Assembly (NCBI GenBank): GCA_026225395.1
Contig: JAMFSR010000001.1
Coordinates: 1-64,000, forward strand
DNA length: 64,000 nucleotides
Origin: Granulicella sapmiensis
GTDB lineage: Bacteria > Acidobacteriota > Terriglobia > Terriglobales > Acidobacteriaceae
Reading direction: 5' to 3'
The notes beneath the pieces are model-generated. The model saw nothing but the letters and a program-made list of their open reading frames with translations, did no database searches and was not told where the DNA came from. Each line of letters opens with the position of its first letter. Position 1 is the first letter of the stretch. Positions 26,258-59,525 of this stretch are shown here, one piece after another. The position numbers were made by a program, and so were the translations under genes.

Positions 26258-26323
26258 CCCGGATTAGCAGCGGGCTTTAGCCCGCTGAATAACAAGCAAA
26301 AAAAGGGCTTCAGCCCTGGGCCT
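26258..26323 (-). repeat. REP family A copy A1
   Basis: GGATTAGCAGCGGGCTTTAGCCCGCTG...GGGCTTCAGCCCTGGGCC, reverse complement of the family. Confidence 0.75.
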
Positions 26324-38883: not shown

Positions 38884-39750
38884 GTGCCTCTTCGCGTAGC
38901 TGCCATCTCGTTTCTGAATCCTGCTCCACTCCTCTATAACTTCGAGCACGAACCTACTGCCTCGCAGCTGCGGTCGCACTATGACGTTCACTACACAACA
39001 CCCGCGAATTGCGCTACAGAACTGCTGAATGGAACGGCGGATCTTGGGCTGATTCCGATCGCTTCGCTGACGCCGGAGTTGGCGATTGTTCCAGGATGCA
39101 CGATCGCTTCGCTGCATGAGGTTCGCAGCATTCTGCTGCTGGTGAAAAACTCTCAAAATCTCAGTGATGACGCGGCTTTGAGGGCTGTACGCACAGTAGC
39201 TGCGGACGCTGCTTCGCGGAGTTCGCAGGCTTATGCGCACATACTTTTTGAGCATTTTCACCAGGCAAAACCAAGCTTCGTCGAGCATCTGGCAGACCCG
39301 ATTCCTATGCTTGCGCAAGCGGATGCTGCGCTGCTGATTGGTGATCCCGCGCTGCTGGCGCGGGAGCATCGTGGGGCTATTGAGGCGGCGCATCCGGGGC
39401 TGCTTTGGTTGGATCTGGCGGCGGTTTGGCGGGGGCTTACGGGACTTCCCTGGGTTGCAGCTGTATGGGCTGTGCGGCCGGAAGCGATTGATTTTGCGGG
39501 AGTTACAGCCGTGCAGTTGATTGCGGATCTTACTGCCAGCCGCGATAACGGGCTGGCGCATATTGAGGAGTTGGTGCGGGAGTGGACGCCGCGTTTGGAG
39601 GTTCCGGCGGCTACGATTCGGACGTATCTGACTGAAAACATTCACTATACGCTGGACGCGGAGTGTGTGAAGGCTATTGAGGAGTTTCGGGGGTTGGCGG
39701 CGGGGATTGGGGTGTTGCCGGAGTTGGGAAAACTGACCTTTTTGTCGTGA
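38884..39750 (+). CDS. mqnA: Chorismate dehydratase (menaquinone futalosine pathway)
   Basis: VAAISFLNPAPLLYNFEH, GTADLGLIPIASLTPE, SSQAYAHILFEHF; GTG start. Confidence 0.85.
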   Translation: MPLRVAAISFLNPAPLLYNFEHEPTASQLRSHYDVHYTTPANCATELLNGTADLGLIPIASLTPELAIVPGCTIASLHEVRSILLLVKNSQNLSDDAALRAVRTVAADAASRSSQAYAHILFEHFHQAKPSFVEHLADPIPMLAQADAALLIGDPALLAREHRGAIEAAHPGLLWLDLAAVWRGLTGLPWVAAVWAVRPEAIDFAGVTAVQLIADLTASRDNGLAHIEELVREWTPRLEVPAATIRTYLTENIHYTLDAECVKAIEEFRGLAAGIGVLPELGKLTFLS

Positions 39751-41128: not shown

Positions 41129-41200
41129 CCCGGGGCTAAAGCCCCTTGAGGGCAAAGCTTGTTCGTGGGGCTAAAGCCCCACGCTAATCCGAAAGGCAAG
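41129..41200 (+). repeat. REP family A copy A2
   Basis: CCCGGGGCTAAAGCCCC..GTGGGGCTAAAGCCCCACGCTAATCCGAAAGGCAA. Confidence 0.8.
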
Positions 41201-54749: not shown

Positions 54750-54825
54750 CCCGGGGGCTAAAGCCCAATTTAGGGGCAGGTTAGTTGTCCGGGCTGAAGC
54801 CCGGACCTATCTCAGAAGCAAAGGC
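54750..54825 (+). repeat. REP family A copy A3
   Basis: CCCGGGGGCTAAAGCCC..GTCCGGGCTGAAGCCCGGACCTATCTC. Confidence 0.75.
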
Positions 54826-56139: not shown

Positions 56140-56212
56140 GCCCGGGGCTAAAGCCCAACTTCTTGGTGAGGTTTATTCGTGGGGCTAAAGCGCCACGCTA
56201 ATCCGAGAGGCA
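56140..56212 (+). repeat. REP family A copy A4
   Basis: GGCCCGGGGCTAAAGCCC..CGTGGGGCTAAAGCGCCACGCTAATCCGAGAGGCAA. Confidence 0.75.
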
Positions 56213-57339: not shown

Positions 57340-57368
57340 GGTAGGTTGCCAGTTCATGGGCCGGGAAA

Positions 57369-57436
57369 GCCCCGGGCTAAAGCCCTCCTTTTTGGTGAAC
57401 CCGGAACAGGGGCCTGAAGGCCCCTTCTAATCCGGC
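57369..57436 (+). repeat. REP family A copy A5, abutting RAYT 3' end
   Basis: CCCCGGGCTAAAGCCC..AGGGGCCTGAAGGCCCCTTCTAATCCGG. Confidence 0.75.
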
Positions 57437-57960
57437 AGGACGAGAGGCTGTGGCAGGACGAGAGGCTGTGGCAGGACGGGAAGCTGTGGCAGCGCGGTAA
57501 GCTGTGGCGGCGCGGTAAGCCACGAAGGCCTGGGGTCTATCAACTTGTTGCGACCGCAAGAGCTATAGGGATATTCGGCGGCGGTCGCAACCATGCGTGC
57601 CCTGACGGGATTGTCTTCGACGTATCGCAGGAATGAGTCGAACTGAGCCCGATCAACAACTCGTCGATTGTCGTAGCCGCGCTCCCAAACGTCCATTTTG
57701 CTTTTCAGACGAAAGGAAAAGCCGCCTTTTATGAACTGGGCGGCCTTTTCAAGAGAGACATCGGGAGCGGGTGTAAGCAGGAGGTGGACGTGATCGGGCA
57801 TGATGACGAAGGCGTGCAGTTCGAAGCGGCCTTTGGCTCGGTTTTCCTGCAAGGTTGTGAGAAACAGTTCGGCAGTTGCGGTGACCTGAAAGAACCGACG
57901 ACGTTGCGCGGTGACGGCGGTAAGCAGGTAGGTTCTCAGTTCCTGCGGAGCAAGTTTCAT
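57427..57960 (-). mobile_element. REP-associated tyrosine transposase (RAYT, Y1_Tnp/IS200-like)
   Basis: HAFVIMPDHVHLLLTP (HUH), FIKGGFSFRLKSKMDVWERGYDNRRV, YVEDNPVRARMVATAAEYPYSS; start refined to 57960. Confidence 0.88.
57434..57523. repeat. 18-bp tandem repeat, five units
   Basis: GGCAGGACGAGAGGCTGT x2 exact, then three diverged units; encodes hexapeptide repeats at the RAYT C-terminus. Confidence 0.85.
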
Positions 57961-57978
57961 GCGGCCAGCATACAAGAA

Positions 57979-58050
57979 CCCGAGGCTAAAGCCTCTTCCC
58001 AAATTGGCACTTTCCAGCGGGCTAAAGCCCGCTGCTAATCCGGGAAGGCA
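57979..58050 (+). repeat. REP family A copy A6, just upstream of RAYT start
   Basis: CCGAGGCTAAAGCCTC..CAGCGGGCTAAAGCCCGCTGCTAATCCGGGAAGGCAA. Confidence 0.8.
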
Positions 58051-58152
58051 AATGAAGGCTGTTGCAGTCCGAATGGCGCGGACGCGATGATTTGTTCTTG
58101 GCAGGATTCGCACCCGGGGGCGTAAAGCTGCATCTATCATTCAGCTAGAACA

Positions 58153-59448: not shown

Positions 59449-59525
59449 GGCCCGGGGTTAAAGCCCTGTATTTTATGGGCACCTAGATGTCCGGGCTAAA
59501 GCCCGGACCTAATCCCAAAGGCAAA
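59449..59525 (+). repeat. REP family A copy A7
   Basis: GGCCCGGGGTTAAAGCCC..GTCCGGGCTAAAGCCCGGACCTAATCCCAAAGGCAAA. Confidence 0.8.

Follow-up and report, generated by a model that had tools for sequence, protein, structure and literature searches.

A RAYT transposase and its GGATTAG-headed, two-hairpin repeats in Granulicella sapmiensis

How a RAYT chooses its REPs, and why REPs persist, are open questions that have been studied in few systems, those with GTAG heads. The window analysed here, a stretch of 64,000 nucleotides of the soil bacterium Granulicella sapmiensis (Acidobacteriaceae; contig JAMFSR010000001.1), raises them at a locus where a predicted Y1 transposase gene lies between two double-hairpin repeats, A6 and A5. 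An earlier note on this DNA had described a 177-aa minus-strand frame with the motifs HVH, VWERGY and DNPVRAR..YSS, bracketed by these two copies, and both descriptions were borne out (Table 1; the copies extend over about 57366-57433 and 57982-58041). RAYT/REP systems are already known, as is an acidobacterial type, the TIRYTs (PMC3733652). To these we add the two-hairpin anatomy with its GGATTAG head, a covariation between head and protein segment, and a strand polarity.

Results

The predicted protein is classed with the RAYTs and its active site appears complete

The protein matches the Pfam family Y1_Tnp (PF01797). It scores 101 bits with the NCBIfam model REP_Tyr_transpos (NF047646), above the equivalog cutoff of 80, and 36.3 with the NCBIfam IS200 model, below the cutoff of 55. 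The nearest solved sequence is that of E. coli TnpA-REP (4er8; E 5.7e-6), and an AlphaFold2 model built from 25 sequences (mean pLDDT 86) found in Foldseek the same protein bound to REP as its best match (4er8; E 9.3e-10, TM 0.67/0.72). Curated family model and fold thus both support the identity proposed in the earlier note, and on its sequence and modelled fold the protein is filed as a RAYT.

We considered the possibility that the catalytic tyrosine is missing, as had been suspected from a phenylalanine in GGFSFRLK. This was ruled out by the alignment to 4er8 and by conservation among relatives. FSFRLK belongs to the preceding helix, and the tyrosine is Y113, which aligns with Y115 of E. 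coli TnpA-REP, the residue changed in its catalytic mutant Y115F (PMC8266576). The protein has both the HUH motif (H57-V-H59) and the YxxxNP catalytic motif (Y113-VEDNP). The alignment of relatives shows no variation at H57, W92, N117 or P118 and at least 90% conservation at H59 and Y113. Judged by its residues, the RAYT is catalytically complete and apparently an intact DNA-cutting enzyme.

RAYTs had also been described as single-copy, which here is true of this RAYT lineage only, as the genome holds five RAYT-like genes. The closest is 48-49% identical to the one studied here; there is no close second copy and the other RAYTs are at most 49% identical, a low copy number unlike that of a self-copying IS. 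The four further genes lie at C40:36871, C26:136334, C12:2564 and C4:376066; GAGATAG repeats go with the gene on C40, and CGGTAG repeats with that on C26.

The repeat is a two-hairpin unit with a single head

Read on the RAYT-sense strand, the repeat consists of a pyrimidine-rich edge containing CT, the head GGATTAG, a first hairpin (stem of about 8 bp, TTTA or TTCA loop), a short linker, a second hairpin without a head of its own (typically GGGGC-TTTA-GCCCC), and GGGCCTT. The two hairpins share their loop orientation and are nearly fixed in spacing, with a single head per unit. Hairpin 1 is nearly palindromic, so that both strands fold, and in most copies its stem has 8 bp or close to that; hairpin 2 is imperfect in several. 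CT occurs at most 7 nt from the head in 21 of 26 copies, where about 8 would be expected from nearby sequence, and just past hairpin 2 in 17 of 19 (about 10 expected).

The hairpin core is found 13 times in the window with at most one mismatch (0.30 expected), and head plus hairpin (GGATTAGN7CTTYAG) 6 times (0.00 expected). Throughout the genome (4.98 Mb) head plus hairpin has 28 matches, against 0 for the reversed control. The seed GGGCTAAAGCCC put forward earlier for such a count is indeed enriched genome-wide (51, reversed control 0), but it overcounts the GGATTAG family, being common to several repeat families with different heads: the same two-hairpin layout recurs in this genome with GAGATAG, CGGTAG, GGAGGGAG, CGAAGG and GGTAC. 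Double hairpins number 26 in 1.21 Mb and 0 in the reversed sequence, in a sample made up mostly of long contiguous stretches, some of them picked for holding copies. One GAGATAG-headed double hairpin, of another family, lies in the window at 54755-54802, less than 3 kb from the GGATTAG RAYT. A search of Rfam for the repeat family gave only one sub-threshold hit, at chance level.

The copies are dispersed, multi-copy, mostly intergenic and linked to a RAYT, as are REP-like repeats in the broad sense. They do not carry the GT[AG]G that stands 5' of the hairpin in canonical GTAG REPs, the head being GGATTAG, i.e. TTAG. Nor are they built of two inverted REPs like a REPIN, since the loops point the same way and the head is on one hairpin only. 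The family is a REP-like repeat with a variant head, neither a GTAG REP nor an inverted REPIN.

The RAYT block has directly oriented flanking copies

The head and primary hairpin of A6 stand about 75 nt upstream of the RAYT, and the RAYT stop codon, TAG, lies within the head of A5, the downstream copy. A6 has the canonical upstream orientation; A5 is direct relative to it rather than inverted, and because the flanking copies are direct we did not class the locus with the canonical REPtrons. In the genus member G125 a RAYT fragment that adjoins an NHL-like gene (assigned by eye) has an inverted downstream GGATTAG unit, which makes the direct arrangement look derived; the fragment is 62.8% identical over 43 aa and is cut by assembly Ns. 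In another relative, G143, about 40 nt separate the NHL gene from cinA, and neither RAYT nor repeat lies between them.

Besides the flankers, two further GGATTAG copies lie within 2 kb of the RAYT (0.024 expected, p 2.6e-4). No exact empty sites that would fix the ends of the mobile unit were found for single repeats among the relatives, because these are too diverged (nearest about 70-73% DNA identity at cinA); only for the RAYT block as a whole was absence seen, in G143.

Table 1. Features of the RAYT locus and GGATTAG double-hairpin copies in the window
Feature	Position	Strand	Basis or remark
RAYT (TnpA-REP type Y1 HUH transposase), 177 aa	57427..57960	-	intact frame; H57/H59, W92, Y113, N117-P118
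HUH motif H57-V58-H59	57784..57792	-	sequence; alignment conservation
Catalytic Tyr Y113 (in RYVEDNPV)	57622..57624	-	aligned with Y115 of 4er8
Segment W92-ERGYDNRRVVD, putatively head-reading (corresponds to W94-R104 of E. coli TnpA-REP)	57652..57687	-	covariation with repeat head across relatives
A6 head GGATTAG (58035-58041) and primary hairpin CAGCGGGC-TTTA-GCCCGCTG (58015-58034)	58015..58041	-	
A6 second hairpin GAGGC-TTTA-GCCTC	57982..57995	-	
A5 head GGATTAG (57427-57433) and primary hairpin AGGGGCC-TTCA-GGCCCCT	57408..57433	-	
A5 second hairpin GGGC-TTTA-GCCC	57374..57385	-	
18-bp minisatellite, 4.8 copies	57434..57520	.	extends RAYT C-terminus up to A5
RAYT and repeat block between NHL-repeat gene and cinA	57340..58152	.	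absent in G143
GGATTAG double-hairpin copy	56145..56204	-	
GGATTAG double-hairpin copy	59455..59515	-	
GGATTAG double-hairpin copy	41133..41190	-	
GGATTAG double-hairpin copy	26261..26316	+	opposite orientation, far side of 39-kb strand-bias switch

Heads and a short protein segment covary among relatives

In Acidobacteriaceae a RAYT usually stands between inverted units whose heads match, and each RAYT has its own head; the heads are mostly not GTAG, and nearly all end in AG. A final AG has been proposed to select CT cleavage in group 3 RAYTs (PMC8266576). At one locus (L098) inverted GGATTAG copies lie on both sides of the RAYT. Within the genus, most GGATTAG elements are found in the genome studied here (28) and in G125 (15), both of which carry a RAYT of the GGATTAG type; no such RAYT was found in G127 (6 elements) or G131 (3), and orphan REPs left after RAYT loss have been described (PMC3686654). 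The link between RAYT and repeat that had been postulated is supported by local repeat enrichment and by the cognate repeats found next to L098 and G125, the relatives that have the same head, while co-occurrence across the genus holds for the two genomes richest in elements and not for the other two.

Each head goes with a particular sequence in the segment that corresponds to W94-R104 of E. coli TnpA-REP: GGAGGGAG mostly with W[ME]RSFNES, GGTAGAAG with WQSGFTKRRIED, GTGGAAGA with WQxSFT[NE]HRI, TTAAG with WQR[GS]F[TI]DHRIR, GGTAG with WQK[GS] and RR at 101-102, and, in two species each, GAGATAG with AHRV and GGATTAG with YD[NS]RR[VI][VT]D. Similarity of heads and of segments remained correlated in a partial Mantel test after overall protein similarity had been removed (r 0.36; 0 of 5000 permutations as high). 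A structure-blind window scan of a thinned set had its peak at residues 98-114 of E. coli TnpA-REP (0 of 300 permutations of the maximum statistic as high), a range that takes in E100, H101 and R104, which are described as contacting GTAG in E. coli (PMC6006769, PMC8266576). Repeated with 40 proteins, the scan peaked again at 98 and 103, the observed value of 0.457 being close to the highest of 200 null values (0.440). Because these permutations control shared ancestry only partly, the covariation should be read as a strong correlation and not as proof of a code.

Two relatives deserve mention. In G143 a RAYT (L276) has GAGATAG heads on both sides, and both head and segment match those of the C40 RAYT. 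The closest protein by its best segment (74%), in a Granulicella metagenome-assembled genome (L115), is frameshifted and has upstream of it the head GGTGGGAG, not GGATTAG.

Heads lie almost always on the C-rich strand

Counting all families in the genome of G. sapmiensis, 41 of 43 elements carry the head on the C-rich strand, as do 24 of 24 in the GGATTAG family. One of the two exceptions lies at zero skew; the other belongs to the inverted pair that flanks the C26 RAYT, of which it is one arm. The polarity persisted when elements within 30 kb were merged to 14 clusters (p 1.2e-4), and within contigs C1 and C20 it flips along with the strand bias. Flanking genes, identified by simple longest-ORF calls, point both ways, and repeat orientation is independent of their direction. 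The same polarity was found in G122, whose complete genome has ordinary skew and other heads: on the one replichore covered, all 12 solitary tagged elements had the head on the C-rich strand. Beside many solitary units, G122 also contains two close pairs in which two-hairpin units face each other in inverted orientation at a distance of about 120 bp; these pairs resemble REPIN dimers (L219, L238).

The 16S gene, sought as a guide to replication direction, was not found in the assembly itself, and relatives were used instead. The G-rich strand is probably leading, because the rRNA genes of relatives lie on it (in short flanks), and the head strand would then be the leading-strand template. We found no report of REP polarity in the REP literature examined, which is not proof that there is none.

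The strand bias itself is stepped

GC skew has a sawtooth form in this genome (in the window at 39000-39300, and on contigs C1, C4, C41 and C33), with 16 sharp upward and 2 downward steps in 1.03 Mb, a step being a change of more than 0.2 over 6+6 kb. Between steps the skew declines gradually; the bias does not depend on the direction of genes and is most marked at third codon positions. The upward steps look like many origin-like points, and no convincing DNA word was shared by the 16. At 39 kb the step falls between dprA and mqnA, which are neighbours in most relatives, yet the step itself is present in 1 of 22 genomes; this conservation ruled out a rearrangement breakpoint. Similar stepped skew occurs in the genus in G064 (L249-L256) and G140 (L239-L248), and was not seen in 400 kb of G122.

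Discussion

We favour, at a probability of roughly 0.8, a RAYT/REP system of an established type, marked by heads other than GTAG and by a second hairpin that lacks a head, in which a catalytically complete RAYT spreads two-hairpin units. Protein family, active-site residues, repeat excess, association in relatives, covariation, clustering, polarity and the absence of the block in G143 were observed; from there we infer binding, CT cleavage and mobilisation by the RAYT, and coupling to replication. The enzyme would act as a Y1 HUH single-strand DNA endonuclease and ligase. It would bind the GGATTAG head and the adjacent 8-bp hairpin with its TTTA or TTCA loop on the head strand, exposed as single-stranded DNA, cut at CT dinucleotides close to where the unit ends, and move or copy the unit to other intergenic sites with a strong preference for one strand. 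Hairpin 2 probably belongs to the mobile unit, because hardly any copy lacks it and families with different heads share it; perhaps it marks the 3' end.

Alternatively, the RAYT may no longer be active and the repeats may be fossils, kept for mRNA 3' ends, termination or nucleoid protein binding. Only 28 copies exist, and in several of them the second hairpin is imperfect; the inverted repeat that originally lay downstream has been lost, and the RAYT reading frame ends in a minisatellite and the head of a repeat. Yet the frame is full-length with all catalytic residues, the primary hairpin is well kept in most copies, and the indifference of the repeats to flanking gene direction is unlike a role at the transcript level, so that we regard a relic as unlikely. 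We judge it quite improbable that the two direct hairpins are the left and right ends of an IS200/IS605-like element, which would make the 70-nt repeat not a REP but a non-autonomous IS of minimal size. The direct orientation of the two hairpins, their nearly fixed spacing and the CT sites at both outer edges recall the ends of IS608. Against this, the protein fits the RAYT equivalog and falls short of the IS200 model, its YxxxNP motif is that of class 2 (PMC6006769) and not the YxxxQ of IS200, hairpin 2 lacks a head, and in relatives the units on either side of the RAYT are inverted.

The strand polarity might result from selection against hairpins on one strand, or from a link with gene direction, and not from insertion on one strand of the fork. 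What is visible is the outcome and not the insertion events. IS608 follows a lagging-strand-template rule, and the leading-strand-template polarity suggested for the GGATTAG repeats is the opposite, if the G-rich strand is leading. However, selection on hairpins fits poorly with a primary hairpin that folds on both strands, and a link with genes fits poorly with flanking genes of both directions; the flips with strand bias inside C1 and C20 also speak against either. We hold this explanation to be rather doubtful.

The many non-GTAG heads that covary with a short protein segment make recognition directly testable by segment swaps between proteins expressed in the laboratory, and strand polarity offers an in-genome readout of single-strand REP insertion. 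More tentatively, the RAYTs of Acidobacteriaceae may form a natural set with a readable code between W94-R104 and head, and solitary two-hairpin REPs may insert with near-absolute strand polarity, recording the local direction of replication where strand bias switches often along a contig.

Compared with E. coli TnpA-REP (YafM/RayT, 4er8), the Granulicella RAYT has the same fold, HUH motif, tryptophan, catalytic tyrosine and NP motif, the head stands directly 5' of the hairpin, and the gene adjoins its repeat. It differs in its GGATTAG head, where E. coli REPs have GTAG, and at the GTAG-contacting positions 95, 100, 101 and 104, which are Q, E, H and R in E. coli and E, N, R and V here. Unlike E. 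coli REPs, the repeat has a perfect 8-bp stem without a bulge and an extra headless hairpin. The group 3 RAYT/REP systems of Marinomonas (Mb) and S. maltophilia (Sm) likewise have short perfect-stem REPs and heads ending in AG, the Mb REP also sharing the TTTA loop (PMC8266576). The present system is set apart from them by its non-GTAG head, the second hairpin in every full unit and its acidobacterial host.

The TIRYTs noted in 2013 in T. saanensis, K. versatilis, A. capsulatum and G. mallensis are acidobacterial Y1 transposases with non-GTAG terminal repeats, for which double palindromic TIRs were mentioned (PMC3733652). They come from the same host group and their flanking repeats are likewise non-GTAG; head/protein covariation and strand polarity are not part of that account (PMC3733652). 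The GGATTAG repeats resemble REPINs and BIMEs in being short, dispersed and hairpin-forming and in their association with a RAYT, and inverted pairs do occur in G122. The usual copy, unlike theirs, is a solitary unit of two direct hairpins with one head, and not two inverted REPs.
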